Below, piece by piece: positions 11,530 through 40,867 of a DNA stretch of 64,000 bases. The stretch's first letter is position 1, and each line of letters starts with the position of its first letter. A program made the position numbers and the translations under genes. This DNA comes from Lachnospiraceae bacterium A4 (GTDB lineage Bacteria; Bacillota; Clostridia; Lachnospirales; Lachnospiraceae): NCBI GenBank assembly GCA_000403215.2, contig KE159531.1:18707-82706 (forward strand). Direction: 5' to 3'. A model generated the notes under the pieces. The model was not told the DNA's origin, did not search any database, and saw only the letters and a list, made by a program, of their open reading frames with translations.

Positions 11530-11596
11530 GGAAAAATTACAAGCTGTATCGGAATTTCAACATTAAAACTGAATAAGCTGTAGAATAAGGTATACT
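11530..11596 (+). promoter_or_regulatory. agrD1 promoter with two-box operator
   Basis: GGAAAAATTACAAG starts at 11530 and TCGGAATTTCAACATT at 11549. The -10 hexamer TATACT is at 11591-11596, so the boxes begin 61 and 42 bases before it. No good -35 is present, which suits an activator-dependent promoter. The first box recurs at the same distance before the Amidase_6 gene and the radical SAM gene. Confidence 0.6.
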
Positions 11597-11628
11597 TTTA
11601 CTGAAAAATGAAATTGGAGGTGTATTAT

Positions 11629-11775
11629 ATGTCAGGCAACGGAAAGAAAAATATTACAGCTACAATTTTGGAAAAAGTAGCACGTAATTCTGTGAAAGCA
11701 GCAGCCGACAGCAGATGTATGTACTGTCTGCATCAGCCCAAGCAGCCGACTGGGATCAAGAAGTTTTCCCGATAA
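11629..11775 (+). CDS. agrD: AgrD-type autoinducer precursor (locus 1)
   Basis: This 48-residue peptide is preceded by TTGGAGG. It has an amphipathic leader (ITATILEKVARNSVKAAA), a core with Cys30 in SRCMYCLHQPKQP, and a basic tail. By analogy with staphylococcal AgrD (Cys plus four residues, then the cut), AgrB1 would cut after Leu34 and give a ring Cys-Met-Tyr-Cys-Leu with a short N-terminal tail. A second Cys inside the ring is unusual and could allow alternative closure. The HQPKQP recognition segment is shared exactly with AgrD2. It is transcribed divergently from its locus. Confidence 0.9.
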   Translation: MSGNGKKNITATILEKVARNSVKAAADSRCMYCLHQPKQPTGIKKFSR

Positions 11776-11792
11776 AAAAGCGGCATACGGAA

Positions 11793-11843
11793 AAAATACT
11801 GCCATATATGTGAGGAAACTTACATATATGGCAGTATTTTTTT
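11793..11843 (+). terminator. terminator of agrD1
   Basis: AAAATACTGCCATATATGT (11793-11811) pairs with 11822-11840 around a 10-base loop, followed by a run of seven T. It ends agrD1 as a short single-gene transcript. Confidence 0.85.
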
Positions 11844-11911
11844 GAAAAAGTTTTGTTATCACTGTATGCTTCATAAATGTAAACGAGTTTAAAGAAATTG
11901 GAAAATAGATA

Positions 11912-11977
11912 GGAAAAATGACATACAGAGTCGTTTTTTCAACATTTAGTTTAAAAAGTATGAATAAATATTATATT
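11912..11977 (+). promoter_or_regulatory. Amidase_6 gene promoter with two-box operator
   Basis: GGAAAAATGACATA starts at 11912 and TCGTTTTTTCAACATT at 11931. Over 35 bases this matches the agrD1 operator in register, with identical GGAAAAAT, ACA, TCG and TTTCAACATT blocks. A -10 candidate TATATT starts at 11972, 60 bases after the operator start. No clear -35 is seen. Confidence 0.6.
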
Positions 11978-12038
11978 TTTATTGGAGGAGTGGTCAACAC
12001 TCCAAAGTTGCTAATATATCAAAAAAGGAGGAAAAGAA

Positions 12039-13142
12039 ATGCAATTAGCAAAAGTAAAAAGAAAAGTAATGTCGTTTGCTGTAGTAGGTGCGGTTATATT
12101 ATCCTTGATGGTGCCGGGTATGCCAGTCAATGCTGCACAGGAGGTTGCTGTAACAAATGAAATCAGTTTTCTTGGTGAGGAACAGGTCGATGCTATCTGC
12201 AAAGCGGTTGTAGAAAACATTGAGGAAAATTATGAAGGAGTGTATGCATTTGATAATTATGACATAACAGTTCATAACCAGACAGAAGAGGGTGATACAT
12301 TATATGTGGATGTAGATGTTTTGGTAGACATGACATTGATCCGGAATCCAAAGGACAGTCCGTATATGATGGGAATGAAAGCAGCGTTAGATGAGATTGC
12401 AGGCGCAGAAGAAAAGGAAATTGCTCAGCAGGAGTATGATGCGTATCTACAAAAGATTATGCCCTATTACAACCTACCAGTATTAACAGGATTCTTATAT
12501 CGTGTATATGTTCCAACCATAATGGTATTGGATTCAGAAAGTGATTTCAGATTTGATATGTATCACAGAATGGATATAACGGATGAAGAAGTTATTCTGT
12601 CTGAAGTTTTGGAGGATGAACAGTACACTGAAATTGGAGATAATGAGGATGGCAGAAATTATATTAATGAGGTGTTAATCAGTGCGGCAGCCGAATCAAG
12701 CAACACTATATATGATGCATCGAAGGCAGTGGCTTACGCAGTGGCTCATGCTAAAGATATACCAGAATACAGCTCAGCAAATAACAATGGAAGTGACTGT
12801 GCAAATTTTGTTTCCAAATGTATCAATGCAGGCGGGATTCCACAGGATAGAGCCGGAAATTGGTATCAGGGTTCCACAAATTGGATTCGTACAGGATATT
12901 ACAAAAATGGCGGTGTTGTTCCATATCTTACGGGAAAAGGATATTTTAAATCGGTTTCCTCTAGTAGTGGAGCAACAGAAGGTAGTATTATGTATTATAA
13001 TGCAAAGAGCCATGTTGCCATTGTAACGCTGATTGATGGATCTACAATTAAGTATTCGCATCATTCAAATGTACCAAAGGACGCCGTATATTATGTATAT
13101 AACAGTAAAACCGATAATGTAACATTCTATGTACCAAAATAA
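12039..13142 (+). CDS. secreted Amidase_6-domain protein
   Basis: A Sec signal peptide (basic start, then VMSFAVVGAVILSLMVPGMP, cut near VNA/AQE) precedes a poorly conserved acidic region. The C-terminal 145 residues are an Amidase_6 domain: KAVAYAVAHAKDIPEY, then the probable catalytic Cys in NNGSDCANFVSKC and His in AKSHVAIVTLI. Proteins of this family are putative cell-wall or peptide-cleaving amidases acting outside the cell. AAAGGAGG precedes the ATG. Its promoter shares the operator with agrD1, so it is probably a quorum-controlled secreted effector. Confidence 0.85.
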   Translation: MQLAKVKRKVMSFAVVGAVILSLMVPGMPVNAAQEVAVTNEISFLGEEQVDAICKAVVENIEENYEGVYAFDNYDITVHNQTEEGDTLYVDVDVLVDMTLIRNPKDSPYMMGMKAALDEIAGAEEKEIAQQEYDAYLQKIMPYYNLPVLTGFLYRVYVPTIMVLDSESDFRFDMYHRMDITDEEVILSEVLEDEQYTEIGDNEDGRNYINEVLISAAAESSNTIYDASKAVAYAVAHAKDIPEYSSANNNGSDCANFVSKCINAGGIPQDRAGNWYQGSTNWIRTGYYKNGGVVPYLTGKGYFKSVSSSSGATEGSIMYYNAKSHVAIVTLIDGSTIKYSHHSNVPKDAVYYVYNSKTDNVTFYVPK

Positions 13143-13258
13143 ACTGTATCATTTATTACATAGTAAGGGAAACTGTTTGGATAGACGGTTTCCCTATATG
13201 TGTGTCAGGTGAAGTTACAAATAGAAATTGCAATAAATATATAGGTGTAACAATCGTT

Positions 13259-14566
13259 TTAATATTTGTCTTTTGTAAATGGTAGAGAAATTTCAAATGT
13301 GCATCCACCCCCGGAAGTATCAAATAGCTGTATTTCCCCATCCAATTTATTAACTAATTCATTCGCAATACTGAGTCCAAGTCCAAAATGCGATTTATCA
13401 GTGTGGGATTTATCTGCGCAAAAAAAACGGTCAAAAATGTAAGGTTTATCTTCATCAGAGATTCCCTGCCCATGGTCAATGATGGATATATTTATATTTT
13501 TGTGGGAAAGAGATGCCTTGATTTGGATAGCTGTCTTTGTTTTCGAATGTGAAATTGCATTATCCATAAAAATACTTAAAATCTGGAATAGGCATTCCTG
13601 ATCCGTATATATTGTAGGGAAGCAGGTATCCATAAAGTTCACATCTAAAGCCATTCCTTTTTTGTTGCATATTGGCTCATAAGCTTCATAGAGAGTAATC
13701 AGCAAAGTATCGAGATTTACCATTGTTTTATTAATTTTACATGTACCAGAATCTGAAGAAGCTAGAAAAAGCATATCTTTAATTAATTTTGACATTCGCA
13801 TAGATTCTGTATCTATGATGTTTGAAGCTTTTTTAATTTTCGGTATATTATCACTTAAGCTAATTATTTCGTCATTACTGGCTAATATGACTGCGAGTGG
13901 AGTTTTTAGCTCGTGGGAGGCAGAAGCTATAAAATCTTTCTGGCTTTTTAATACTTTTTCAGTTGGCTTCATAGCATGTTTCAGCAAAAAACGGCTGACG
14001 ATTGTGATACAGATTAGAGCGGTAAACCATATTAATGTGTAAAAGGGCAATTGTTTTTTTATCAGTTCAAAAGTCGTCTTTTTCTGATAAAGCAAGTTCA
14101 GATGGAACATAGTTCCGTTTTTGTCAATAATAACAGATGGTATTCCCCAGTATTTATCATGGTAAACACCGGAAAAGGATATAATTCCGTTTTGTGTTGT
14201 AGAGAATGTTTGATTTAAAACTGTGGTAGATTCAAAGTTTAACTTTTCTGTAAATTTTTCCAACAAAAGGTTTATGTCTGTCGGGAATAGGGAATTACCC
14301 TGATAAACCACATTCCCTTGTGTGTCTGTTAGTAAGGCGAAAATGGAATACTGATTTTCATAAGGCTTAATAATTGTCTGAGGATTTTTTTCTGGATTTT
14401 CTAATTCATAAATCATTAGCGTAGAAAGTCGTTGAAAAAAAATACTATCGCTCATCTGTTTATTATCGATAGAATTAATACACAGTACACCGATAATAAC
14501 AGTTATAACAAGCATGATGGAACTGATAAAAATGATAAATATTTTTTTATATAAATTATCCAGCAT
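13259..14566 (-). CDS. two-component sensor histidine kinase
   Basis: Two membrane segments (about residues 8-30 and 165-185) flank an extracellular sensing domain of about 135 residues. The HisKA motif is in DFIASASHELKTPLAVILAS, followed by N, G1 and G2 boxes (MDNAISHS, DHGQGISDED, HFGLGLSIANELV). ATG 14566 is chosen over the frame start at 14596 because GGAGATT lies before it; it still overlaps the regulator gene by 11 bp. The large extracellular loop argues against a BceS-type kinase. It is paired with the ABC system transcribed divergently. Confidence 0.9.
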   Translation of the reverse strand: MLDNLYKKIFIIFISSIMLVITVIIGVLCINSIDNKQMSDSIFFQRLSTLMIYELENPEKNPQTIIKPYENQYSIFALLTDTQGNVVYQGNSLFPTDINLLLEKFTEKLNFESTTVLNQTFSTTQNGIISFSGVYHDKYWGIPSVIIDKNGTMFHLNLLYQKKTTFELIKKQLPFYTLIWFTALICITIVSRFLLKHAMKPTEKVLKSQKDFIASASHELKTPLAVILASNDEIISLSDNIPKIKKASNIIDTESMRMSKLIKDMLFLASSDSGTCKINKTMVNLDTLLITLYEAYEPICNKKGMALDVNFMDTCFPTIYTDQECLFQILSIFMDNAISHSKTKTAIQIKASLSHKNINISIIDHGQGISDEDKPYIFDRFFCADKSHTDKSHFGLGLSIANELVNKLDGEIQLFDTSGGGCTFEISLPFTKDKY

Positions 14567-15245
14567 TTTTAATCTCCAATCTGTAGCCTGAGCCATAAAT
14601 AGTCTTTATTTCGCAAATGCTTCCTATTTCCCTCAACCTTTTCCGAAGAAATGAAATATAGTTATCCACGTTTCCGGGTACGATATCCGTATCAGTTCCC
14701 CATATTTTATAAATTAACTGCTCACGGGACATAAGAACATGGGGATGCTTTATAAAGGCAGATAATACTTCCGCCTCTTTTGCGGTTAAAAGCAGTGATT
14801 TTTTCCCACAGGTCAAAATGCGTCCACTTTGATTGAAAGATAAATCGGAAAAGCAAAGGTTCATTTCCTGCCTGATTTCGGCAGGGCGTCTGGTCAATGC
14901 CCTGATACGGGCAAGTAACTCTGGAATGTGAAAAGGTTTTACCAGATAGTCGTCTGCGCCATTATCCAATCCTTCTATCCGGTCGTTTAGTTCTGACATT
15001 CCCGTAATGATAATAACAGGGATTGAGATTTGTTTCCGGCGCATTGCTTTTATAATTGTCATTCCGTCAATAATAGGAAGCATACGATCAATAACTGCCA
15101 GATCATAGCAGTATTCTAAATTTAATGCGTAAAGCATTCCAGTTTCCCCGTCATTGCAGTAGTCAACGACATATCCGGCTTTTTGTAGTTCGTCTTGTAT
15201 TAAGCCACAAAGATGTAAATCATCTTCAAGTAATAGTATTTTCAT
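14556..15245 (-). CDS. OmpR/PhoB-family response regulator
   Basis: The receiver domain (1-120) has acidic residues in LLLEDDLHLCG and a phospho-Asp in LAVIDRMLPIIDG (about residue 51-53), with Lys in DYLVKPFHI. A winged-helix domain follows (about 130-225; LLLTAKEAEVLSAFIKHPHV, then VDNYISFLRKRLREIG). It precedes and overlaps its kinase. The intergenic region toward the lipoprotein gene holds an inverted repeat that is the best candidate binding site, so the regulator may control itself and the ABC operon. Confidence 0.92.
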   Translation of the reverse strand: MKILLLEDDLHLCGLIQDELQKAGYVVDYCNDGETGMLYALNLEYCYDLAVIDRMLPIIDGMTIIKAMRRKQISIPVIIITGMSELNDRIEGLDNGADDYLVKPFHIPELLARIRALTRRPAEIRQEMNLCFSDLSFNQSGRILTCGKKSLLLTAKEAEVLSAFIKHPHVLMSREQLIYKIWGTDTDIVPGNVDNYISFLRKRLREIGSICEIKTIYGSGYRLEIKNAG

Positions 15246-15300
15246 AATATCAAATCCTTTTCTGTTTATATTCCATTTTAGTATAGCAGATAATTCTATA

Positions 15301-15350
15301 AAAATCCTATAAAAAGAGATGTATTAATTTATTTCGCTTATAGGATTTTT
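15301..15350. promoter_or_regulatory. inverted repeat between the response regulator and the lipoprotein operon
   Basis: AAAATCCTATAA (15301-15312) and TTATAGGATTTT (15339-15350) are perfect complements 26 bp apart in the divergent promoter region. The position suits an operator for the OmpR-type regulator. A hairpin function in the 5' leader of either transcript cannot be excluded. Confidence 0.5.
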
Positions 15351-15404
15351 TTAGGACTTTGCTGTTAATATGAATTTACAAAAAAAAGAAAGGAAATGTT
15401 TATT

Positions 15405-16151
15405 ATGAAAATGAAAAAACAAACAATCTTGAAAGGTCTAATTATTGGTGTGTGTGTATTGACTTTAGCCGGATGCGGCACGAAGCAGGCAGAAGTACAG
15501 GGGGAGAAAGATATGTCTGTAACAGAGTGGTATCAAAATGATATATCTGATTCAGAAGATATGTCATTAAATAAGGATGAAAAGGGTAGTACTGCTCCTG
15601 AAACGTATGATGCGAACGGCAATGATAATGCAGAACAACCTATGCCGAATGACAATAGTAATATAGAACAACCTATGCCGAATGACAATAGTAATACAGA
15701 ACAACCTATGCCGAATGACAATAGTAATACAGAACAACCTATGCCGAATAAAGACACTACGGCAGAGAACCAGAATAATACTACAGCAAATGATATGGGT
15801 GAGAAAGTGGATGCAGACAGTCTGTATGCATCAGCAGCTATGACAGGAAGCGTTGTGGAATTTTCTGATGGTAGCTGTACAGTAAGTGCTGCCGTAACTG
15901 AAGATGATGGAAAAACCGGTGTAGTTGCTGCACCTGGGTATGAAAGTGAGGACACAAATGTAGTGGTGACATATCAGGAGGGCTGTGTGGTTCAGATTGC
16001 AACCATATATACTTCAACCGGGATAGCAGAATTGGAGCAGGCGTCTGTAGCAGACATTAAGAAACAGGCAAGTGTTATTATCTATGGAAGTTTTGAGGAT
16101 ACACATCATGTAACGGCGACAAAAATTATCATATGTCATAGAACAGCCTGA
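15405..16151 (+). CDS. lipoprotein with EQPMPNDNSN repeats
   Basis: A lipoprotein signal (LTLAGCGTK, Cys of the lipobox) anchors the protein outside the membrane. A linker with four copies of an 11-residue repeat (EQPMPNDNSNT; the last partial) leads to a C-terminal domain of about 110 residues (SLYASAAMTGSVVEFSDGSC onward) that looks beta-rich. ATG 15405 is preferred over 15396 for spacing to AAAGG. It is first in an apparent operon with two permeases and an ATPase, so it may be a substrate-binding or sensing accessory. I recognise no family for the C-terminal domain. Confidence 0.75.
   Translation: MKMKKQTILKGLIIGVCVLTLAGCGTKQAEVQGEKDMSVTEWYQNDISDSEDMSLNKDEKGSTAPETYDANGNDNAEQPMPNDNSNIEQPMPNDNSNTEQPMPNDNSNTEQPMPNKDTTAENQNNTTANDMGEKVDADSLYASAAMTGSVVEFSDGSCTVSAAVTEDDGKTGVVAAPGYESEDTNVVVTYQEGCVVQIATIYTSTGIAELEQASVADIKKQASVIIYGSFEDTHHVTATKIIICHRTA
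15632..15752 (+). repeat. 33-bp coding tandem repeat, about 3.7 copies
   Basis: The unit beginning GAACAACCTATGCCGAATGA starts at 15632, 15665, 15698 and 15731, nearly identical in each copy, and encodes EQPMPNDNSNT. Because it is in frame (33 bp), copy-number change would lengthen or shorten the lipoprotein linker without a frameshift. Confidence 0.9.
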
Positions 16152-16167
16152 ACAGGAGGTATTGATT

Positions 16168-17385
16168 TTGAAATTTTATCAGCTTGCATTTCGGTATTTA
16201 TGCCGAAAAAAGTCTAAGACATTTATTTTGCTTTTGGTATTGCTGTTTATAAACAGTATGATTTTGAGTTCTTACATGATTTTACATGCCACAGAAGATA
16301 CTAGGATAACTATGCAGGAAAAGATGGGAACCAAGGTAGTACTGGAAGTGAAGGAGAGCAGTCAGATTATTATAGAAAATGAGATTAGTGCAATTCGAGA
16401 TTTGGATGGAGTGATATATGTCAACCGTCTGACCAGCAACGCTGTTTATCCTGTTAATTTTAACCCTGTTACAAATAGTGATTCTGAGGAAGAAAATAAC
16501 TGGAAAGTAACATTGCTGTCTTATGATGATCTGGATCGTGACAGTGCCTTTAGTGATTTAAGATATCGCTTGATGGAGGGGAACATGATTACGGAGGGCG
16601 CTGAAAAAGGGGCTGTGATCGATTTTGTGTTGGCGGATGCGAATGGTCTTGAAATAGGGGATGAGATGAAAGTCGGAACAGAAACAGGGAATGTGATCAG
16701 CATAAAGATTATAGGTGTTTTTGTTGCGGGAAGTGAGAGAAACCAAATGGATACCCTACCGGCAGTCAACCGTATTGAAAACCAGATTTTTATTGACAAT
16801 GAATCCTATATGGAGCTGTTTGATGATGTGGGTTACCGTAAGATAGCAGTATATACCAAAAATCCGGATCAGATAGATGTTTTGGTACAGGAATTAGAAG
16901 ATTTTTTAGGTAACAGAGTGGAAATCACAACTGCTGATATGTTATATCGTCAGTTGGAGGTACCGCTGAACAGAATAGTCCGTGTAATGAAACTTATGCT
17001 GATATTCACGTTGGTTGCAGGGGTGACAATTACTTCATTATTACTTTGTATGTGGATGCGGTCGAGAAAAAGAGAACTTGCTGTTTTTATCAGTATGGGA
17101 AAAAGAAAAACGGATATTTTTATGCAGATTTTTATGGAAACGGCAGTCGTCTTTTGCATGTCTGTATTTGGTGCCTGTATAATAGGAAGTGGGATGGCAG
17201 GAATTATGAAAAAACTGCTCATGGAAGAAGATACGGCAGTTCTCTTATCAGTTTCCTTACAAGCAAGGGATATTGCAACAATGTTCTTTGCAGGAGGCTG
17301 TATAGCAGTTATTGCTGTCTGTATCTCATTACTGCCTATCTTAAAGGCAAATCCAAAAGATATTTTATCAAAAATGGAGGGATAG
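16168..17385 (+). CDS. ABC transporter permease, FtsX/MacB-like (first)
   Basis: One membrane segment near residue 16-36 is followed by a large extracellular domain (about 40-265), then three C-terminal membrane segments (about 275-400), the FtsX/MacB topology. The C-terminal ILKANPKDILSKMEG is typical of the family. TTG 16168 is chosen because AGGAGGT at 16155-16161 lies 6-7 bases upstream. It likely pairs with the next permease as a heterodimer powered by the ATPase at 18882. Such systems extrude or sense antimicrobial peptides or lipoproteins. Confidence 0.87.
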   Translation: MKFYQLAFRYLCRKKSKTFILLLVLLFINSMILSSYMILHATEDTRITMQEKMGTKVVLEVKESSQIIIENEISAIRDLDGVIYVNRLTSNAVYPVNFNPVTNSDSEEENNWKVTLLSYDDLDRDSAFSDLRYRLMEGNMITEGAEKGAVIDFVLADANGLEIGDEMKVGTETGNVISIKIIGVFVAGSERNQMDTLPAVNRIENQIFIDNESYMELFDDVGYRKIAVYTKNPDQIDVLVQELEDFLGNRVEITTADMLYRQLEVPLNRIVRVMKLMLIFTLVAGVTITSLLLCMWMRSRKRELAVFISMGKRKTDIFMQIFMETAVVFCMSVFGACIIGSGMAGIMKKLLMEEDTAVLLSVSLQARDIATMFFAGGCIAVIAVCISLLPILKANPKDILSKMEG

Positions 17386-17388
17386 TGA

Positions 17389-18831: not shown

Positions 18832-18881
18832 ACAGTTTATGTACGTAGGTATTTGGAAATAAATTAAGGAGGACAGTTGAA

Positions 18882-19716: not shown

Positions 19717-19783
19717 GGAAAAATTACAAATAAACTCGTAAAAATTACAAGCCGCAAAAAAAGTCAAATTTTGAATGTATTAT
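19717..19783 (+). promoter_or_regulatory. radical SAM operon promoter with two-box operator
   Basis: AAAAATTACAA occurs twice, 21 bp apart, within GGAAAAATTACAAA (from 19717) and TCGTAAAAATTACAAG (from 19736). A -10 candidate TATTAT begins at 19778, 61 bases after the operator start. No -35 is seen. GGAAAAATTACAA and the central TCG are identical in position to the agrD1 operator. Two direct repeats two helical turns apart are the usual LytTR site. Confidence 0.6.
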
Positions 19784-19812
19784 ATGTATAAAAGAATTTG
19801 GAGGATATGCAG

Positions 19813-21378
19813 ATGAATGACGGTTTGAGATTAAGAAAAGAAGAAATAGAAAAGAAATTTTTAGAGATGGTTCCTGATAGGAAATTTGGACGCTTAGGAA
19901 CAGTTTTTAAAACAACAAATAATAAATATTTTTATGATGCAGGTACAGGAAAAGTCTTTTGTTGTGAAGAAGATGAGTATGATGTGTTGAAATATTTATT
20001 AGACAATGAGGATGTTTTTCCTAAAAACACTGATGATATGCACAAAATCGAAAGGTGGTGTGACATATATGAAAAGTTACTGTTTTTATGTGAAAAAGAA
20101 AACATTTTGCAAGCGCCATTAAGGGAGTTCTATAAACTGGAAGATAAAGACTTAGAGGTATTAATAGATAAAGATTTACAGCAGATAATTTTGGAATTAA
20201 CTCAAAAGTGTAATTTGAGATGTAAATATTGTATTTATAATGAATATAATCCTGCATATCGGGATTTTACAAATCAGGATATGGATTGGGATGTGGCAAA
20301 AAGAGCAATTGATTATGCTAGAGAGCATAGCGGTAAAAAAATTGCTGTTACATTTTATGGCGGAGAGCCATTAGTCAGATTTGATTTGTTAAAGAAATGC
20401 ATAGATTACTGTTTAGAAACAATTAAGGATAAGGAACTGACATTTTCATTATCTACGAATTTGACATTGATGACACCCCAAATTGCAGAGTATATTGCCT
20501 CAATAAAGGGATGCAGTGTTTTATGCAGCATTGACGGACCGGATTTTATACATGATGCTTACCGGGTAAGTGCGGATAAAAAAGGAACGCATAAAAAGGC
20601 GATACAAGGATTACGTTATTTGGTTGAAGCTATGGGTGAGAAGGGAAGCAAAAGAATCATAATAAATACTGTAGTTTGTCCGCCATATTCAAAAGCAAAA
20701 TTGGACATGATACAAGATTTTTTTGACAGCTTAGAATGGTTGCCTTCAGAAGTTACAAAAAAGTGTGATTACGTTGAAGGCGGATCTTTGCGAGACGAGG
20801 ATATAGATTTGACATTTCTTGATTCAGAAGAAGACAAAGAAGATTATAAAAAAGGTGAAATCGACTCTATTAGAGCATGGGCTTTGGATAATGTATTGGA
20901 AAAAAACGATAATAGAGGGTATTCATTTGGTGTTGGAAAAGACAATCTGATAAGGATACATAATAGAATACTCTGTGACAAACCAAGTAAATATATACAT
21001 AGAAATGGATGCTGTATACCGGGAAATCGTCGAATATATGTTAAAGTAAACGGAGATTTTTCATTATGTGAAAAAGTAGGCGATTGCCCTGATATTGGCA
21101 ATGTATATGAAGGAGTCGATATTGGAAAAGTAAAAAAATACTATATTGAAGAATATGAAAACAAGTCAATTGGTGATTGTAGTAATTGTTGGGCTGTAAA
21201 TATTTGCGGTGTTTGCTATGCTTCTTGTTGTGATAAAAATGGATTGAATATGGAATATAAAAAAGTTGCATGTGATTATCAAAAAGAGCAGGCGATAGGG
21301 GAATTGATGGCATATCACCAGTTGTTAGAGGATAGACCAGAAGAAATTGAGAAGATAAAAGAAGTTCCTATAATGTGA
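19813..21378 (+). CDS. SPASM radical SAM peptide maturase (CcpM-like)
   Basis: The enzyme is predicted to modify the Cys-rich peptide encoded next to it. Residues 20-110 look like a peptide-recognition region. The radical SAM 4Fe-4S motif CNLRCKYC lies at about 133-140, followed by a GGEPL motif and a TIM-barrel. The C-terminal SPASM domain is Cys-rich (CCIPGNRR, SLCEKVGDCP, then GDCSNCWAVNICGVCYASCC) and can bind auxiliary clusters. Length (521) and layout match clostridial Cys-rich-peptide maturases. ATG 19813 is chosen because GGAGG lies 8 bases upstream. It heads a four-gene operon. Confidence 0.9.
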   Translation: MNDGLRLRKEEIEKKFLEMVPDRKFGRLGTVFKTTNNKYFYDAGTGKVFCCEEDEYDVLKYLLDNEDVFPKNTDDMHKIERWCDIYEKLLFLCEKENILQAPLREFYKLEDKDLEVLIDKDLQQIILELTQKCNLRCKYCIYNEYNPAYRDFTNQDMDWDVAKRAIDYAREHSGKKIAVTFYGGEPLVRFDLLKKCIDYCLETIKDKELTFSLSTNLTLMTPQIAEYIASIKGCSVLCSIDGPDFIHDAYRVSADKKGTHKKAIQGLRYLVEAMGEKGSKRIIINTVVCPPYSKAKLDMIQDFFDSLEWLPSEVTKKCDYVEGGSLRDEDIDLTFLDSEEDKEDYKKGEIDSIRAWALDNVLEKNDNRGYSFGVGKDNLIRIHNRILCDKPSKYIHRNGCCIPGNRRIYVKVNGDFSLCEKVGDCPDIGNVYEGVDIGKVKKYYIEEYENKSIGDCSNCWAVNICGVCYASCCDKNGLNMEYKKVACDYQKEQAIGELMAYHQLLEDRPEEIEKIKEVPIM

Positions 21379-21438
21379 TAATGGTTTAAACACTTTGTGT
21401 TTAAATATAATTCAGTTTTGGTAAAGGAGGTGATTTTT

Positions 21439-21648
21439 ATGAAGATGGTTAATCCTATGGGGAGAACTGCTGAGTCTCTTGAGACAGGCGCAAACTTTGG
21501 AGTAACACCTTTAAGTGGATGCGTATGTTCTGATACTGAGGAACTTGCAAATGCACATAACAAGGGACCGACAAAGTGTGTAGGCTATTGCCTGTATGGC
21601 GAAGAAAACAAGAACGCCAACATGGAAGCAGCGAAGAAACCTCACTAA
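21439..21648 (+). CDS. Cys-rich RiPP precursor peptide
   Basis: This 69-residue peptide follows the very strong site AAAGGAGGTGATTTTT. Residues 1-26 form a plausible leader (MKMVNPMGRTAESLETGANF). The core has four Cys at 28, 30, 47 and 51 in the pattern CxC-x16-CxxxC, with a Gly/Asn-rich tail. Its place directly after a SPASM radical SAM gene and before an exporter is the hallmark of a modified peptide such as a thioether-bridged one. The arrangement resembles clostridial Cys-rich peptide families (Clo7bot/CLI_3235-like), but I cannot assign it to one. Ser, Thr and Asp beside the Cys are possible bridge partners. Confidence 0.85.
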   Translation: MKMVNPMGRTAESLETGANFGVTPLSGCVCSDTEELANAHNKGPTKCVGYCLYGEENKNANMEAAKKPH

Positions 21649-21672
21649 TGAGGTATCCCAGAATCAAAGTGG

Positions 21673-21704: not shown

Positions 21705-21729
21705 TTGCTGTTTGAAAGGAAAACATAAA

Positions 21730-23526
21730 ATGCAAAAAATAAAAAAAAGCATAGCAATAATTGTGGGGACATTTAAATTATTATATAAAAGTGCATCATT
21801 TTATATAATAGCAATGTGCATAGCGAATATATTTTCTGGTATACTATTATCTCTTGGAATTGTAATATGGAAGAATATCATAGATTCGGTGCAGGAGTCT
21901 ATAAAATCAGGTCGTTTAGATAATACTATTATATGGTTAGTAATTCATTTTGCAACTATATTACTGCAGGCTTTATTGACTGAAATATGTGCATATTATA
22001 AAAATATATTATCCACTTGCACGAATAAGAATATAACACAAAATGTCTTGGATAAAATTAGTAAAATGGAATTGGAAAAATATGATGATGTATCATTTTA
22101 TGATAAATTAAAAAAAGTTAATGAAGAATCGACAGCTAGAACTATGAGTTTATTAAATTCTGTTGAAATGCTTGTAAAAGGGGTTAGCGTAGCTGTATCT
22201 ACGGCGATGATTTTATTTCGATTTAACCCATTGTTTATGATTTTAAGTATAATTATAAGTATACCGAATTTAATCATAAATATGAAAATAGCAATTATGC
22301 AGTATAATGTTTATTGTGACCGATTTGAGAATAAAAGATATATTGATTCTATTAAAAATTTAATTACAGCACATGAAAATGTGAAAGAGATCAAGATATA
22401 TAATTCAACTCCATATTTTGTATCATACATACTTAACTCCTATAAAAAATATATTGAGGAAGATAAAAAAATAAGGAAGAAATTTGTACTGGAATCGTTC
22501 TCGATGGAGTCATTAGGAAATATTTTTATTTATTTCTTGAAAGCAATAGTATGTTATGAAATAGTGATACAGAAAATGTCTATTGGTAGTTTGACATTGT
22601 ACTTTAGTTCAATAGATAATTTTAGAAGTGCTATGGCAAATATAATTAATGTAATGAGTTCAATGTTTGAAGATGGATTATATGTACAAAGTTATTTTGA
22701 ACTTATGAAAGATACTGAAACAGCAAAGGAGTCTGGCAGAAAGAAAAAATTTGTAAGTGAGTTTCATAAAATTAGGTTTGAAAATGTATGGTTTTCTTAT
22801 CCTGGCACTCAAGATTATGTTTTGAAAGATATAAATTTTGTAATAAATCGAGGAAAAAATTATGCGATAGTTGGACTTAATGGATCTGGAAAAACAACAT
22901 TATTAAAATTATTATTGCGCTTATATAAGCCAACAAAGGGAACTATTTATATTGATGAAATAGATATTAATGAAATAGATATTGATAGTTACTACAAAGA
23001 AATATCTGCGGTATTTCAAGATTTTATAAAATATCCATTAACAATTAAGGACAATATAGGTTTAGGAAATGTTGCTGAAATGAATAATTTAGAGAAGATA
23101 AACAAAGCAGCAGCACAAGGCGGAATACTAGAATTTGTGAATAGCTTGCCTATGGGGATGGAGACTCATTTACAGAAAGAATGGTCAAACTCGGTAGAGT
23201 TGTCTTTAGGTCAATGGCAGAAAGTAGCAATTAGCAGAGCGTTTTTTAAAAATGGTCAGATTATGGTATTAGATGAACCCACCGCATCATTAGATCCTAT
23301 GGCAGAACAGGATTTATTTCAAAAAATTAAGGATTTAACATATGAAAAAACTTGCGTTCTAATTGCACATAGATTTTCTACAGTTAGATTAGCTGATGTA
23401 ATTTATGTAATGAAAAATGGAGAAATTATAGAAAGTGGGAGTCATGATCAATTAATAAATAAAAACGGAGAATATGCATTGCTTTTTTCAGTACAAGCAA
23501 AAGGATACTTTGAGGACTGTGAATAA
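21730..23526 (+). CDS. ABC exporter with fused membrane and ATPase domains
   Basis: Six predicted membrane segments (residues about 15-310) are followed by an ATPase domain (about 340-595): Walker A GLNGSGKTTLLKL, signature LSLGQWQKVAISR, Walker B IMVLDEPTASLD. No N-terminal C39 peptidase domain is present, so leader removal needs another enzyme, plausibly the M16 protein encoded next. It most likely exports the modified peptide as a homodimer. ATG 21730 is preferred since GAAAGGA lies 9 bases upstream. The stop overlaps the following gene's start by one base. Confidence 0.92.
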   Translation: MQKIKKSIAIIVGTFKLLYKSASFYIIAMCIANIFSGILLSLGIVIWKNIIDSVQESIKSGRLDNTIIWLVIHFATILLQALLTEICAYYKNILSTCTNKNITQNVLDKISKMELEKYDDVSFYDKLKKVNEESTARTMSLLNSVEMLVKGVSVAVSTAMILFRFNPLFMILSIIISIPNLIINMKIAIMQYNVYCDRFENKRYIDSIKNLITAHENVKEIKIYNSTPYFVSYILNSYKKYIEEDKKIRKKFVLESFSMESLGNIFIYFLKAIVCYEIVIQKMSIGSLTLYFSSIDNFRSAMANIINVMSSMFEDGLYVQSYFELMKDTETAKESGRKKKFVSEFHKIRFENVWFSYPGTQDYVLKDINFVINRGKNYAIVGLNGSGKTTLLKLLLRLYKPTKGTIYIDEIDINEIDIDSYYKEISAVFQDFIKYPLTIKDNIGLGNVAEMNNLEKINKAAAQGGILEFVNSLPMGMETHLQKEWSNSVELSLGQWQKVAISRAFFKNGQIMVLDEPTASLDPMAEQDLFQKIKDLTYEKTCVLIAHRFSTVRLADVIYVMKNGEIIESGSHDQLINKNGEYALLFSVQAKGYFEDCE

Positions 23527-24677
23527 TGAATGAAATAGAAATGTTATCTATACATAATAGAGAATGTATATGTTATGATGTAAGAGAAGCGCAAGGAACT
23601 TTATTAGTAGGATTGGTTGTTGAAGGCGGCTCTGTTTTAGAAGAAGAGTGCGAAAAAGGGTATACACATTTTTTGGAACATGTGATGTTGAGTTTCTCAA
23701 AAGAAGATAGAAGAATACGGTGTAGAGGATATACTGATTTTTATTACACATATTATATTTTTTCGATAACAAGTGATATGTTTAATGTATGCATGGAATT
23801 GATAGATGAAATTCTTGCTGGAAAATACATAACTACTTATAATGTTGAAAAGGTTAGGAAAGATGTAATAGCTGAGTATAAAGAATTTATTGTATCAAAG
23901 AAGGAATTTAATTATATCTTGGAAGGAACAGATTATATCAATCATTTGGCAATTGGAAAAATAGAAAATATCCAATCTTGCAATTCTTGTGATTTATTTG
24001 ATTTTTTTAAGGAAAAGTATCAATCCCAATTTATTGATATAATTATAATTGGAGATACAAGTAAAATTGATGCAAAAAAATGTATCACTAAAAAACATAA
24101 TTATATAGGGGACAAAAAAGAAATAAGTGTTTTTGGGAAAAAATATGGTGCTATTATAAATGCTCAAATAGCTCTAAATGGTATACATATATTTTTCTAT
24201 AAAAAAAGATGTTATAAAAACAAAATATCATATGTAACGGAAATAGCCATTGAGGAAATACTTTTTTCGTTAATTGAAAGTATTACAAGTTATGAAGTGA
24301 GTAAAATTAATATATCATCTTTAGAACAATTAGTTTGCATAAAATTATCTGATAGCAGTATGTATGGGGATGCTAATGCGTTATTAAATTATATTCAAAA
24401 AAAAATGGATAAAAATATTATTCAAAAATATATACGAGAATATAGAAAACAGTATAAAATGTATATAAGTAAAGGTACAGGGGTTAATTTAGAAAAAGAA
24501 TTACTTAGATGTATAAATGATCTAGTTTATAATGGGGAAATAATTGGTTATAAAGAAATGATGAGTATTATAGAGCAACAACTGGATATCATTAGTATGG
24601 AACAAATATTTGAAGCATATCATTCCATGTTTAATCAAGAGACATATTATGTTGCTATAAAAAATGAAGATAAATAG
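23526..24677 (+). CDS. M16-family zinc peptidase, probable leader peptidase
   Basis: The inverted zinc motif HxxEH is intact as H48-F-L-E51-H52 in YTHFLEHVML. A third ligand is likely E117 in VRKDVIAEYKEF, the family's usual spacing. At 383 residues it is about one M16 unit (two half domains), shorter than pitrilysin, like peptidases found in PQQ and subtilosin operons. With the exporter lacking a C39 domain, the simplest role is removal of the precursor's leader. The start overlaps the exporter stop (TAATG), so the two are coupled. No signal peptide: it acts in the cytoplasm. Confidence 0.85.
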   Translation: MNEIEMLSIHNRECICYDVREAQGTLLVGLVVEGGSVLEEECEKGYTHFLEHVMLSFSKEDRRIRCRGYTDFYYTYYIFSITSDMFNVCMELIDEILAGKYITTYNVEKVRKDVIAEYKEFIVSKKEFNYILEGTDYINHLAIGKIENIQSCNSCDLFDFFKEKYQSQFIDIIIIGDTSKIDAKKCITKKHNYIGDKKEISVFGKKYGAIINAQIALNGIHIFFYKKRCYKNKISYVTEIAIEEILFSLIESITSYEVSKINISSLEQLVCIKLSDSSMYGDANALLNYIQKKMDKNIIQKYIREYRKQYKMYISKGTGVNLEKELLRCINDLVYNGEIIGYKEMMSIIEQQLDIISMEQIFEAYHSMFNQETYYVAIKNEDK

Positions 24678-24918: not shown

Positions 24919-24919
24919 G

Positions 24920-36124: not shown

Positions 36125-37733
36125 CTGGTGAGTTGTAAGTTATCAATAAAAAAATAACCCTTCCATATGGTTTTATGGTATCCTATAAGTTGCCAAAATA
36201 AAAAAGGATAAATCCACCAGAAGAGTTATTTCAAATATGAGTTTATCATACTTGCTGGCGGATGACCATACGACTATGTTAAATATTATTGAAAAGATTT
36301 TATGCCATTTTGAATCCTGTTTTTCCCGTAAAGCTGCTTTCCGTTGGTTTGTGATCATCATCACAGGGCTTATGCTCCGTTCGGATAAGCTTGGTGTCAC
36401 TTCCATACTTCGTGACCTTGCCCTTGCCCCGGGCTGCTATGATTCCATGCTTCACTTTTTCAGGGCATCCTCATGGTCATTAGAGGATATCCGAAAACGC
36501 TGGTTCTCTGCTGTCAGACTGTATGCGCCCCTTTACAAGGAAGGGAACTTCCATGTCCTTGTTGGTGACGGGGTAAAGCAGTCAAAAGAAGGACGCCGTA
36601 TGCCGGGGGTGAAGAAGCTATTCCAGGAATCCGAGAATTCTGCAAAACCAGAATACATGCATGGGCATATGTTCGGCGGGCTTGGCATACTGGCCGGGAA
36701 CTTCCGCAGCTGGGCGTGCATCCCCTTAAGCATCCGGCTCCATGACGGGCTCCAGGCTGCCAGGGAATGGAAAGGCGCATCTGTTTCAACTGCCTCTCAT
36801 GTGGTACAGATGGTGGAGGATTCTTATCATGCCGCCCTCACTTTTGGAGACTCCCTGCTCCTGCTGGACAGGTATTTCCTTACTGTGCCAGCCCTTGAAA
36901 AACTCAGGGAATTAAACAACAGCGGGAAAGTACACATGGAAATCGTCACCAAAGCCAAAAAGTCCTGTACCGCGTTCCAAAAGCCTGGTTCCCGAAAACC
37001 TGGCAGGGGCAGGCCGCCCAAAAAGGGGGATGCCGTTCACCTGAAAGGACTGTTCGCCTCCCATAAGGAACAGTTCATGGAAACGGAAACCGAACTCTAT
37101 GGCAAAAAGAAAACGATACGCTATTACAGCATAGATCTTCTTTGGGGGCAGAAGCTGTACCAGGAACTGCGGTTTGTACTGGTAGAAATGGATGGCATCC
37201 AGAGCATTCTGGCAAGCACCAGTCTGGCACTTGATCCGCTATCCATTATCCGGCTTTACAGCTACCGTTTCCGGATCGAATGCACATTTCGTGAACTGAA
37301 ACAGCAGACAGGCGCATTCTGTTATCACTTTTGGTCAAAGCACATGCCGAAACTAAGCTACTACCAAAAGAAAGGGGAACCCACACCCTTAGAGCGTGTG
37401 GAGGATGAAAGATCACGTAAAAAAATACTGAAAACGGTACGTGCCATTGAAGTGCATATGGAACTGTCCTGCATCGCAATGGGGATACTACAGACCCTTT
37501 CCATCCGTTTTATTGGAAAGGTTTGTTCCAGTCAGATCCGTTACCAAAGGACACCATCCAAAGGAAGGGTTTCCGAAGCAGCCCTTATGCACTATTTCCG
37601 GAAACATTTTTTCCGCCTTTTGGAGCAAAAGCCTAAATCATACATAACACAGATAATTCATGAGCTACAGGAAGAGTCAGAAAAACACTGGGATTTTCTG
37701 GCTTCTTAGTGGTACAAACTTTTAACTCACAAG
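36125..37733 (+). mobile_element. 1609-bp IS, copy 2, inverted relative to copy 1
   Basis: The ends CTGGTGAGTTGTAAGTT and, on the other strand, CTTGTGAGTTAAAAGTT match copy 1. The flanks repeat TTAGATA at 36118-36124 and 37734-37740. Matched flanks on both copies mean that no inversion between them has been fixed since insertion. It interrupts the DUF4367 gene. Confidence 0.92.
36237..37709 (+). CDS. DDE transposase of the 1609-bp IS (copy 2)
   Basis: This is the same 490-residue enzyme as at 2766-4238, with Ser in place of Pro in KPGSRKPGRGRPPKK. The proposed catalytic residues (VGDGVKQS, LLLDRYFLT, IECTFRELKQQ) are intact. It lies in the same direction as the gene it interrupts. Near identity of the two copies means recent movement within this genome or arrival together. 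Confidence 0.87.
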   Translation: MSLSYLLADDHTTMLNIIEKILCHFESCFSRKAAFRWFVIIITGLMLRSDKLGVTSILRDLALAPGCYDSMLHFFRASSWSLEDIRKRWFSAVRLYAPLYKEGNFHVLVGDGVKQSKEGRRMPGVKKLFQESENSAKPEYMHGHMFGGLGILAGNFRSWACIPLSIRLHDGLQAAREWKGASVSTASHVVQMVEDSYHAALTFGDSLLLLDRYFLTVPALEKLRELNNSGKVHMEIVTKAKKSCTAFQKPGSRKPGRGRPPKKGDAVHLKGLFASHKEQFMETETELYGKKKTIRYYSIDLLWGQKLYQELRFVLVEMDGIQSILASTSLALDPLSIIRLYSYRFRIECTFRELKQQTGAFCYHFWSKHMPKLSYYQKKGEPTPLERVEDERSRKKILKTVRAIEVHMELSCIAMGILQTLSIRFIGKVCSSQIRYQRTPSKGRVSEAALMHYFRKHFFRLLEQKPKSYITQIIHELQEESEKHWDFLAS

Positions 37734-37949: not shown

Positions 37950-37987
37950 AATACATAGGTAAATAAAAAGTTACCTATGTATTTTTA
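37950..37987 (+). terminator. terminator of the XRE/sigma/anti-sigma operon
   Basis: AATACATAGGTAA (37950-37962) pairs with TTACCTATGTATT (37971-37983) around an 8-base loop, followed by T residues. Confidence 0.82.
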
Positions 37988-38013
37988 TAGAAAGCTGAAA
38001 GGAGAAATTTTTA

Positions 38014-38475
38014 ATGAAATTTAAATCCATTTTTACCATTGTTGCATCTTTTCTCATTGCGACAACAGAATTTATGTCAGGGTCAATAGTATTTGCCGAA
38101 GAAAAACTGAATACTACTCAAATGCAAGAAAATGACTATGGGATAGTTGAAACACTAAGTCCGCGATTTACGTATATAGAAAGTGCTGATATCGGAGTGT
38201 ATCCTAGTGCTTCCGGCGTAACATACTCCATGAATATATGGGGAATTTCAGAAGTTACAGGCGTTTCAGGAACAATGACTCTGTATAAGCAAGATACAAG
38301 TGGTAATTATGATAAAAAGGATTCAGAATATATCAGCCTAAAGGGTAATGAGCTTCAGTATGAAGGTAGTTTCAAGTCATATGGTCCAGGGAACTATAAA
38401 CTTGAATTTTCTGGTACAGTACACGCAAAATCTGGTTCGGAATCTGTTACATTTCGAAATTACAATTCTTATTAA
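38014..38475 (+). CDS. small secreted protein upstream of agr locus 2
   Basis: A Sec signal peptide (MKFKSIFTIVASFLIATTEF, cut near FA/EEK) precedes a mature domain of about 120 residues. That domain is rich in Ser, Gly, Tyr and Thr with alternating beta patterns (GVTYSMNIWGISEVTGVSGT, then YKLEFSGTVHAKSGSESVTF). No Cys is present in the mature part. It resembles small secreted beta-sandwich proteins of Clostridia (possibly DUF6147-like). GAAAGGAG precedes the ATG. It lies 150 bp before the agr2 regulator and may be co-regulated. Confidence 0.72.
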   Translation: MKFKSIFTIVASFLIATTEFMSGSIVFAEEKLNTTQMQENDYGIVETLSPRFTYIESADIGVYPSASGVTYSMNIWGISEVTGVSGTMTLYKQDTSGNYDKKDSEYISLKGNELQYEGSFKSYGPGNYKLEFSGTVHAKSGSESVTFRNYNSY

Positions 38476-38627
38476 AAACTGATTTTTTGATGAGCTCGTT
38501 TCCGGATTTTAGCATGCTATTCTGGAAATGAGCCCAGTAGTCAAAAACTTAGATTCTTATGAACATTAAACTGGATATTGTCAGAACATTGCGAACTTTT
38601 AAGATAAATCAGCGAGGAGGAATGCTT

Positions 38628-39359
38628 ATGATAAAGGTTGCTATTTGTGATGATGAAAACATGATTGCCAGTCAGATTGATAATATGATCTTAACAATAT
38701 GCCAAAAAGAAAATATATCTGTAGACACAGATGTATTTTATGGCGGCAGTTCTTTGGAAAAAGAAATGCTATCGGGGACTAAATACGACTTGATATATCT
38801 TGATATTCAGATGAAAGATGGTGATGGGATAACAATAGCGAAAAATATCAGAAAGATGGATGAAAATGTATTGCTGATTTATGTATCAGGGTATGACAGA
38901 TATTTAATGGATCTTTTCCGGTTAGATGTATTCACGTTTATTAAAAAGCCTATTGATACAGAACTGTTTGCAAATACCTTTCTGGATGCACATAGGAAAA
39001 TAGGAAATAACAGATTTTATTTTGTTTATCGTTATAAGAATATAGAATATAAAATCCCTTGTATAGATATACTTTATTTTGAAAGCAAGGGTAGAAAAGT
39101 CATTTTATATGGCAAAAGTGGGAGTATAGGATTATTTAATGGTAAATTATCAGATGTAGAAATCCAGGTCACAAATGGAAAAATCCCATATTTAAGAATT
39201 CACCAATCATTTCTTGTGAATTATCATCACATAAAATCACGTTCAAGAACTGAAGTAACACTAACAACTGGAACGAAATTACCGATTAGCGAGGATAGAC
39301 AAAAAACTTTTGGAGAACAATACAATAAAATAATAGGAGATGAAGTACATTTTTTATAA
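38628..39359 (+). CDS. agrA: AgrA-type LytTR response regulator (locus 2)
   Basis: The receiver domain has AICDDENM at its start and phospho-Asp59 in LIYLDIQMKDGDG. The LytTR domain (about 135-235) contains CIDILYFESKGRKVILYGKS and LRIHQSFLVNYHHIKSRSRT. ATG 38628 is chosen over 38559 and 38622 because GAGGAGG lies 8 bases upstream. It is colinear with kinase, agrD2 and agrB2. The proposed target is the TTGACAG repeat pair before agrD2. It is clearly paralogous to the locus 1 regulator, so cross-talk is possible. Confidence 0.93.
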   Translation: MIKVAICDDENMIASQIDNMILTICQKENISVDTDVFYGGSSLEKEMLSGTKYDLIYLDIQMKDGDGITIAKNIRKMDENVLLIYVSGYDRYLMDLFRLDVFTFIKKPIDTELFANTFLDAHRKIGNNRFYFVYRYKNIEYKIPCIDILYFESKGRKVILYGKSGSIGLFNGKLSDVEIQVTNGKIPYLRIHQSFLVNYHHIKSRSRTEVTLTTGTKLPISEDRQKTFGEQYNKIIGDEVHFL

Positions 39360-39535
39360 ATGCAGAAAAGAACATGAAAGTAATTTTGACTACAAATTAC
39401 GTATTCTTAGCGGGGAGTGGGAAATATCATATTAGTAACGTATAATTGTGAATTACAGATAATTGAGTTTTTAAAATGACGGTTAGATTAAGAATTATTG
39501 CAGGTGGTCTGATAGGCTGTCATGAGGTTAAGTAG

Positions 39536-40810
39536 ATGAGTAATTACATACTAAATATAGCAATGGTTATAACAACAATGTGGATTGTCAGAAGATTCTG
39601 GGATATATTTTATGAAAAAAAGAAAACTTCGTTTTGGATTGTGATGATATGGATAATCTTTGGATTATTTCAAACTTATTTGCACATAAAACAGGAAGAT
39701 GCAAATATGCTGATGACATTTTGCAATATTATGTTGATTTTGTTGATAGCAATTCTGGGATATCATTGTACTGGAAATCGAAAGTACTTTCTGGTGGTAG
39801 TCTTTTCGGTAGTATGGGCATTAACAGAATTTTTAGTATTTTTTGTTTTATATCTTATTTTGGAACCGACAGAAAGAATGTATAATATGGGGGCAGTCAT
39901 TACTAAAATATTAATGATAATATTTGTATATGTAATATCGTCGTATTGGAATAGACAGAAGGGAGAGTTTGTGCCCAATTATTACTACTTATATTTATTG
40001 TCTTTTCCTATTGGAAGTATTTATATTTCTTTCAGTGTATTTTATTATACGAAAAGTCATACGTTATCCGCAATTGCCATTATGATAATTCTTCTTGTAT
40101 TTAATGTTATGATTTTTGAATTGTATACAAAGATGAACGAAATGTTTATGAATGAGTGTGATAAAGCAGTATATGCACAGCAGATCGACATTATATCTGG
40201 GAATACTGCAGAGCAAAAAAGAATCATGGAAGAATTTTATAATGAAAAACATAATTTGGAAAATAAACTTATCTCACTAAAAGGATATATTGAGAAGGGT
40301 GATATTGATGGTATAATTGAAAATCTGAATATTATTATCAAGAATAACCAATATGCAGAAAAAATTTCCAACAGTGGAAAAAGTACAGTGGATGCTATAA
40401 TAAATTTCAAGTTTGCAGCTGCAAGTAAATTCGATATAAAATTCAGTTTAAAAATATTTATACCAAATGAATTGCCCATAGATATTTGTGATATAGGTAT
40501 TATTCTTGGTAATGCGATAGATAATGCAATCGAGGCTGTAAGGGAGTGCAGATATCAAAAGAAAATAATTGAGATATCAATGGGGGTAAAAAAGGAAGCA
40601 TGGGTTGTTGTAATAAAAAATCCGTATGAGCATAAAATAGAAAAAAACCGGACTGGAATACCCGTTTCTACTAAAAAGGAAAAACAGAGGCACGGTTATG
40701 GCCTAAAATCCATAATGAGAATTGCAGATAAATACCAAGGTGAAGTAGTGATTGAAACGAAAGATGGTATTTTTTCTTTAATAATAGTATTAAATTTCGG
40801 GGAATTTTGA
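39536..40810 (+). CDS. agrC: AgrC-type sensor histidine kinase (locus 2)
   Basis: About six membrane segments fill residues 1-205, followed by a coiled linker, the phospho-acceptor His in FYNEKHNLENKLISLKGYI, and a GHKL ATPase domain (N box IILGNAIDNAIEAV, G box RHGYGLKSIMRIAD). The start has GAGG upstream. The predicted ligand is the CMVFF thiolactone. The gene ends at the start of the agrD2 operator, so agrD2-agrB2 can be transcribed both by read-through and from their own promoter. Confidence 0.92.
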   Translation: MSNYILNIAMVITTMWIVRRFWDIFYEKKKTSFWIVMIWIIFGLFQTYLHIKQEDANMLMTFCNIMLILLIAILGYHCTGNRKYFLVVVFSVVWALTEFLVFFVLYLILEPTERMYNMGAVITKILMIIFVYVISSYWNRQKGEFVPNYYYLYLLSFPIGSIYISFSVFYYTKSHTLSAIAIMIILLVFNVMIFELYTKMNEMFMNECDKAVYAQQIDIISGNTAEQKRIMEEFYNEKHNLENKLISLKGYIEKGDIDGIIENLNIIIKNNQYAEKISNSGKSTVDAIINFKFAAASKFDIKFSLKIFIPNELPIDICDIGIILGNAIDNAIEAVRECRYQKKIIEISMGVKKEAWVVVIKNPYEHKIEKNRTGIPVSTKKEKQRHGYGLKSIMRIADKYQGEVVIETKDGIFSLIIVLNFGEF

Positions 40811-40867
40811 CAGCAATTTTCGGATTATTGACAGTTTGTCTTGAAAATAGTGTAGTAGGTATATACT
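40801..40867 (+). promoter_or_regulatory. agrD2 promoter with TTGACAG direct repeats
   Basis: GGAATTTTGACAG starts at 40801 and CGGATTATTGACAG at 40821. The TTGACAG cores (40807 and 40828) are exactly 21 bp apart. The -10 box TATACT begins at 40862, so the boxes begin 61 and 41 bases before it, the same geometry as at agrD1. It overlaps the kinase stop codon. Confidence 0.65.

Follow-up and report, generated by a model that had tools for sequence, protein, structure and literature searches.

The window analyzed here, a 64 kb stretch of Lachnospiraceae bacterium A4 DNA (G000:C5:18707-82706, in an assembly of 6.96 Mb), contains two agr systems, agr1 and agr2, with a ruminococcin C-type operon placed between them. 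The same two-box site lies before agrD1, a gene for an Amidase_6 protein, the ruminococcin C (rum) operon and agrD2. The four sites share one geometry, are tied to agrD genes and to one group of AgrA proteins, and are conserved before rumMC in one further genus. They are listed here with their promoters; -10 distances are measured from where box 1 begins, and ranks and bits refer to the half-site matrix described below.

11530..11563, + strand: agrD1 two-box operator, GGAAAAATTACAA / GGAATTTCAACAT; cores 21 bp apart; matrix rank 3, 20.5 bits
11591..11596, + strand: agrD1 -10 TATACT, +61 from box 1
11912..11945, + strand: Amidase_6 two-box operator; matrix rank 6, 17.0 bits
Starting 11972, + strand: Amidase_6 promoter -10 TATATT, +60 from box 1
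19717..19750, + strand: ruminococcin C operon two-box operator, GGAAAAATTACAA / GTAAAAATTACAA; matrix rank 1, 22.2 bits
19778..19783, + strand: rum operon -10 TATTAT, +61 from box 1
40801..40834, + strand: agrD2 two-box operator, GGAATTTTGACAG / GGATTATTGACAG; matrix rank 2, 20.8 bits
40862..40867, + strand: agrD2 -10 TATACT, +61 from box 1

Profile matches identify in both systems an AgrD-type precursor, an AgrB peptidase, a GHKL-type AgrC and a LytTR-type AgrA:

8368..8937, - strand: agrB1 (PF04647, 135.5 bits, cut-off 23)
8975..10285, - strand: agrC1, GHKL-type sensor kinase (PF14501, 68.3 bits)
10282..11025, - strand: agrA1, LytTR response regulator (PF04397, 58.6 bits; PF00072, 50.3 bits)
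11629..11775, + strand: agrD1, cyclic lactone autoinducer precursor, 48 aa from the ATG at 11629 (TIGR04223, 31.1 bits, cut-off 19)
38559..39359, + strand: agrA2, LytTR response regulator open reading frame (ORF), homology from residue 24 on (PF04397, 53.1 bits)
39536..40810, + strand: agrC2 (PF14501, 86.4 bits)
40899..41045, + strand: agrD2 (TIGR04223, 39.8 bits, cut-off 19)
41048..41614, + strand: agrB2 (PF04647, 103.8 bits, cut-off 23)

The agr1 genes are arranged as helix-turn-helix (HTH) gene-agrA1-agrC1-agrB1 on the minus strand with agrD1 divergent, and agr2 runs agrA2-agrC2-agrD2-agrB2 over 38559-41614. Neither system forms a single agrBDCA operon, agr2 reading A-C-D-B and agrD1 diverging from HTH-A-C-B, and because gene order is variable in the other agr loci compared, we do not take the missing order as excluding agr. 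AgrA1 and AgrA2 are 41% identical to each other. Their scores against the narrow NCBIfam AgrA equivalog (30.5 and 24 bits) fall far under its cut-off of 400, so the window regulators are AgrA-like rather than staphylococcal AgrA. A search of the window against Rfam gave no match at gathering scores.

Geometry and specificity of the two-box site

Each of the four sites contains a 13-bp half-site twice, with the ACA cores exactly 21 bp apart, and thus presents the direct repeat with a period near 21 bp, 5' of a promoter, that characterizes LytTR/AgrA operators. A first-pass annotation of the sequence had placed boxes at 11530, 11912, 19717 and 40801, where all were recovered, and a -10 box 60-61 bases past the start of box 1, in agreement with the measured +61, +60, +61 and +61. 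It had also aligned the 11530 and 11912 sites, which lie 382 bp apart, over 35 bases without gaps, and 26 of those 35 positions are identical. Its exact 21-bp core repeat at 19717 and 40801 stands, while the restriction to these two sites falls away, the period being kept at all four. Half-sites 1 and 2 agree at 12/13 positions at 19717, 11/13 at 40801, 7/13 at 11530 and 5/13 at 11912, and the best -35 matches are poor throughout (2, 2, 3 and 4 of 6 bases, in the same order). Half-site 1 of rumMC is identical to that of agrD1 (13/13). A half-site of the GGAAAAATKACA type is common to agrD1, the amidase gene, rumMC and a Lacrimispora agrD, and the agrD2 half-site is the variant GGAATTTTGACAG. 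The initial ten bases of the 40801 site lie inside the 3' end of agrC2.

The distance to the -10 box was examined at 20 sites (four from the window, three from the rest of the genome, five from Lacrimispora and eight from five further genomes), none chosen by its -10 and with a -10-like hexamer defined as at least 4/6 matches including A2 and T6. Such a hexamer starts exactly at +61 in 14 of the 20 sites and at +60 to +62 in all 20, against a background outside +58 to +64 of 1.07 per position on average and 7/20 for the best other 3-base window. At a stricter threshold of at least 5/6 matches, 13/20 sites retain it. Six further direct-repeat agrD sites, absent from this first set, have the hexamer at +60 to +62 in four cases, bringing the pooled count to 24/26.

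Specificity within the genome was assessed with the pattern GGAAWWWTKACA-N7-TCGNNWWWWYNACA, which was derived from the four sites, making the test partly circular; these four sites are its sole exact matches across the 6.96 Mb genome. Allowing up to three mismatches gives 19 matches, against 3 for a reversed control pattern; the matches with two (L007, L008) and three mismatches mostly look coding by eye, as judged from 70 bases downstream. A looser pattern gave 21 matches in the same genome and 9 for its control, and with only the four exact we claim no fifth member. A matrix trained outside the window, on 11 agrD-upstream pairs picked for showing such a repeat (the C13 and C7 agrDs of the same genome and nine loci elsewhere), ranks the four sites 1, 2, 3 and 6 over both strands of the 64 kb; the fourth-ranked match is the 19717 site read on the minus strand, and the fifth (18.2 bits) falls inside the agrA2 gene. 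In 200 block-wise dinucleotide shuffles, matches averaged 0.265 at ≥17.0 bits and 0.02 at ≥20.5 bits, where 6 and 3 were observed; 4/200 shuffles had any match at ≥20.5 bits and 1/200 at ≥22.2 bits. The control pattern, matrix ranks and shuffles together speak against the pattern being equally frequent at random intergenic positions, the outcome that the first-pass annotation had named as refuting its claim. Finally, core pairs 20-22 bp apart occur in 6 of 21 agrD upstream stretches against a shuffle expectation of 0.32 (9 of 30 agrD loci lacked a usable stretch and were dropped), which independently associates the repeat with agrD promoters.

The site in other genomes and at rumMC

Across 397 genomes of the family, the strict pattern with at most one mismatch occurs at 18 places in 13 genomes including the present one, and its reversed control at 3. 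Six of the 14 places outside the window adjoin agr genes (G022, G025 twice, G319 twice, G321), and the two-box site stands before agrD in other genera. The other eight comprise one intergenic position before an unknown gene (G060), six in coding sequence and one unclear case (G005). When agrD upstream regions were scored with a leave-one-out matrix, 13 of 24 rows reached at least 18.5 bits, L103 and L106 being one sequence in two genomes, and two were intermediate (13.0 and 9.7 bits). This survey missed several loci (for example L105, L129, L132, L135, L137, L138, L145, L146 and L150), and its best match in L100 is in another register (offset 20) than the 21-bp site of that locus.

The operator also follows the phylogeny of AgrA. 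A tree of 30 AgrAs (7 of 37 rows dropped: three L103/L106 near-duplicates, three of L111 and one of L112) contains a 16-row clade (95/92) in which 13 AgrAs, out of 14 in the whole tree, have a direct-repeat operator and three lack one. Operator labels require 7 changes on this tree, and as few were seen in 0/200 shuffles; the label "none" rests on the agrD core-pair, matrix and upstream scans. In the seven AgrAs of the TCG class, loop 1 reads RIHQS in six and RVHQS in one, and loop 2 reads ISEDR in six and ISDDR in one; RIHQS also occurs in one AgrA beyond this class (L133). AgrA1 and AgrA2 both carry the GKL, RIHQS and ISEDRQK loops. H200 and N201 of AgrA, named in passages of PMC4227749, may correspond to the RIHQS loop. 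The matches listed by phmmer for AgrA1 against the PDB are all confined to the receiver domain. Its place before agrD across genera and its agreement with AgrA phylogeny suggest that the site behaves as the operator of one group of AgrA/LytTR regulators.

Some loci in this comparison have unusual arrangements. In G025 and G319 (L103, positions 7177 and 14675; L106), an agrA-agrC unit with the operator occurs twice, 7.5 kb apart, one copy before agrD-agrB and the other before an unrelated operon, whose proteins gave in one case no Pfam match and in the other a weak transposase-like match under cut-off. In L056 (1501-1650), a one-mismatch operator is followed first by an AgrD-like peptide of very small size (MSKMYILHQPKGIKELCK), perhaps from a degenerate signal gene, and then by agrA-like and agrC-like genes.

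The first-pass annotation had spoken of a RiPP (ribosomally synthesized and post-translationally modified peptide) operon behind the 19717 site. It can now be specified as a ruminococcin C-type sactipeptide operon at 19813-24677, with RumMC and RumC above their cut-offs:

19813..21378, + strand: RumMC-type radical SAM sactipeptide maturase (NF035951, 947.8 bits, cut-off 720); ORF 19798-21378, with the ATG at 19813, after GGAGG, preferred as start
21439..21648, + strand: RumC-type sactipeptide precursor with four Cys, in ORF 21397-21648 (NF035950, 99.1 bits, cut-off 40)
21712..23526, + strand: ABC transporter, probably the exporter of the peptide (many ABC-family matches, none of the 25 listed above a curated cut-off)
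23526..24677, + strand: M16 peptidase, a candidate leader peptidase (PF00675, 39.1 bits)

Just 5' of the operator, at 19630-19692, lies a long imperfect inverted repeat predicted to fold into a hairpin of -27.4 kcal/mol (z -5.3) without a T run.

A RumMC scan of species genomes, which detects close relatives only, returned four loci, and a search of viral contigs for RumMC found none. Lacrimispora algidixylanolytica encodes a RumMC of 61% identity over the best segment (958.4 bits) and a RumC precursor (105.1 bits), with M16-like and ABC genes downstream by eye. Its rumMC promoter carries GTGATAATGACATGTAAAATCGTATAAATTACAT, the top score of the 21.5 kb locus at 21.8 bits, with TATAAT at +60; thus, of the RumMC proteins compared, both above the curated cut-off carry the operator. 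When the two rumMC promoters are aligned on the operator, 25 of 34 operator positions agree, against 44 of 135 outside the operator and -10. None of the four Lacrimispora agrD matches is on the rumMC contig. The single close AgrA1 orthologue (59% identity; no other above 37% among the matches listed) is also on a different contig, and the operator of its adjacent agrD is an exact pattern match at 25.6 bits. With the agr genes on other contigs, the operator there would act in trans on rumMC. Further Lacrimispora matches stand before a GH48 gene (L160, 22.4 bits), a GH10 gene (L162, 19.2 bits) and a lipoprotein-like gene (L159, 17.1 bits), which suggests a wider secretion regulon with agr control of polysaccharide hydrolases. 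One match of 18.1 bits (L155) was set aside as lying inside a gene.

Regulators and alternative explanations

We consider it likely that the two-box element is an operator of AgrA (LytTR) and that agr1, through AgrA1, activates agrD1, the amidase gene and the rum operon. The earlier proposal that agr controls the RiPP operon gains from the agrD sites in other genera, the Lacrimispora rumMC operator, the rumMC footprint kept above its surroundings and the AgrA group with its conserved loops. AgrA1 appears the best candidate to bind the 11530, 11912 and 19717 sites, a preference over AgrA2 that derives from the Lacrimispora pairing of a rumMC operator with an AgrA1 orthologue and from the rumMC half-site being identical to that of agrD1 and the agrD2 half-site a variant.

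Several observations weigh against this interpretation. The second box is a poor copy of the first at 11530 and 11912, two of the six further agrD sites lack a -10 at +60 to +62, and many agrDs of the family are without the site, 9 of the 24 upstream rows scoring at most 4.4 bits. The seven TCG-class AgrAs do not form a single clade (3 changes on the tree). In Lacrimispora, three of the four agrDs have nothing over 12 bits. Upstream of RumMC-like genes, seven stretches from six genomes (G173, G106, G087, G386 twice, G082 and Coprococcus catus) score at most 5.5 bits. Coprococcus catus (L053, the same sequence as G025:C33) has the operator class before agrD, yet the region upstream of its RumMC-like gene reaches only 2.9 bits; that gene is more distant (51% identity over the best segment, in two pieces). 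These upstream regions indicate that control of RumC clusters by the operator is not universal. Two further agr-adjacent RiPP clusters of the same genome, L100 and L102, have no convincing operator.

As a separate observation on those clusters, L102 (G000:C5:3001-22900) contains at 2163-14025 agrA-like, agrB and agrD-like genes named by eye, the last ending IWGDPPLCIGIGHQPKRPKRK. They immediately precede a CcpM-type RiPP cluster (637.3 bits against a cut-off of 500), the maturase of which ends 6 kb short of the window, and no sign of a two-box operator was found there. L100 (G000:C13:62001-82000) has at 3605-19012 an agr system near a CLI_3235-type RiPP precursor, and a second, similar operator at 18285, after agrB, with a -10 at +62.

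The strongest competitor, which we regard as possible although doubtful, is that the rum and amidase promoters answer to AgrA2, alone or jointly with AgrA1, so that two peptide signals would feed one operator class. The architecture of the agrD2 site and the identity and shared loops of the two regulators fit this idea, whereas the Lacrimispora orthology points to AgrA1 and the GGAATTTTGACAG half-site of agrD2 is unlike the type found at the other promoters. It seems unlikely that AgrA plays a minor part and that the rum operon is mainly under another promoter or signal, such as an OmpR-type two-component system nearby (13259-15245) or a host-protease cue like that of ruminococcin A. By eye, a TTGACA at 19589 lies 15 bases 5' of a TATATA at 19610, with the strong hairpin past it, and the Coprococcus catus RumMC-like gene does without the operator; against this, a promoter scan of 19480-19860 on the + strand found no promoter with 16-18 spacing, and the conserved footprint and -10 position favor the 19717 promoter.

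Two further explanations are each very improbable. Binding by another protein, such as the XRE-type regulator encoded at 11003-11437 between agrA1 and the 11530 site, would have to account for the same sites at agr2, in Lacrimispora and in G025, G319 and G321, where presence follows AgrA, and direct repeats of such period are typical of LytTR regulators, as passages of PMC6193735 describe. The idea that promoter duplication or mobile-element shuffling left the sites alike, as a relic with no regulatory role, draws on the closeness of the 11530 and 11912 sites and on insertion sequence (IS) copies in the region, and is countered by the boxes being kept above their surroundings between two genera.

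The IS elements themselves include near-identical 490-aa IS701-like transposase copies at 2766-4238 and 36237-37709 (136.1 bits, cut-off 170), a pair that brackets much of the region, as well as an IS701 transposase at 27051-28283 (320.4 bits, cut-off 170) with a partial copy at 47383-47922. Two features complete the picture around the amidase gene:

11795..11838, + strand: intrinsic terminator in the agrD1/amidase interval (20-bp stem and T run)
12039..13142, + strand: Amidase_6 protein (PF12671, 51.2 bits, cut-off 23.2), probably secreted, with a signal-like N terminus by eye

The terminator between agrD1 and the amidase gene suggests that 11912 marks a promoter of its own.

Proposed regulation and known systems

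The proposed operator would be a roughly 13-bp direct repeat built on the core WWWTKACA, the two cores lying 21 bp (two helical turns) apart; TCG would precede box 2, a -10 would start 60-62 bp past box 1, and there would be no good -35. AgrB1 would turn AgrD1 into a cyclic peptide, and AgrC1 would detect this peptide and phosphorylate AgrA1. A dimer of AgrA1 on the repeat would then switch on agrD1, as feedback, together with the secreted Amidase_6 protein and the rumMC-rumC-ABC-M16 operon, giving a ruminococcin-C-type sactipeptide output at high density; agr2 would use the same operator class at agrD2. From the sequence comparisons we infer binding, activation, the peptide signal and the place of AgrA1 as main regulator. 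The bacterium would thus probably make a ruminococcin-C-like antimicrobial as its own signal peptide accumulates.

Bacteriocin control by LytTR regulators is already known in kind. In the LytTR bacteriocin systems of streptococci and lactic acid bacteria, some signals are linear peptides. The LytTR regulators of these bacteria recognize 9-bp direct repeats, in most cases separated by 12 bp, in front of bacteriocin and regulator promoters, a period of 21 shared with the present sites (passages of PMC6193735). Unlike those systems, in which some signals are unknown, the present one would pair a cyclic AgrD-type peptide with a radical-SAM sactipeptide.

RgaR of C. difficile and VirR of C. perfringens belong to the LytTR class. 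Their agr-linked sites are direct repeats whose critical bases lie at -51 and -72, and resemble ours in the period of 21 and the tie to agr signaling (passages of PMC10602386). The same source suggests that clostridial agr is in general non-autoregulatory. In contrast, the agrD promoters here bear the same operator as the targets, which argues against non-autoregulatory agr for this family. Staphylococcus aureus AgrA binds as a dimer to direct repeats 5' of promoters with suboptimal -35/-10 spacing, and the P2/P3 arrangement is likewise one of two direct repeats with the agr operon itself a target; there the other target is a regulatory RNA, and here a sactipeptide operon (passages of PMC4227749). 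The present system also differs from that of S. aureus in its WWWTKACA core with TCG and in agrD1 standing alone, divergent from HTH-agrA1-C1-B1.

The rum operon itself resembles ruminococcin C of Ruminococcus gnavus in its RumMC maturase, RumC precursor, proteases and ABC transporter, and has one RumMC and one RumC gene where passages of PMC6779426 give two and five. In the main text of that paper, the words "quorum" and "two-component" do not appear. Searches by title and opening abstract, with most subscription journals outside coverage, showed, among the papers listed, none on agr or AgrA control of ruminococcin C or sactipeptides, and the listed papers on family agr systems or on agr combined with RiPP clusters likewise included none on such control; in the excerpted text of PMC7872077, "agr" is present merely as a journal abbreviation.

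More broadly, we lean toward the view that an AgrA group of this family has an operator class of its own and governs agr regulons that are autoregulatory, coupling a sactipeptide to secreted hydrolases, ruminococcin C and Amidase_6 here and ruminococcin C with GH48 and GH10 in Lacrimispora. Such regulons, if real, would contradict the suggestion of generally non-autoregulatory clostridial agr. The operator definition, with its core, 21-bp period, fixed -10 distance and AgrA loops, offers a search tool for agr regulons in the family. If agr does switch ruminococcin C on, silent clusters might be inducible with a synthetic cyclic peptide, and interference of strains with each other's signals could be put to the test.

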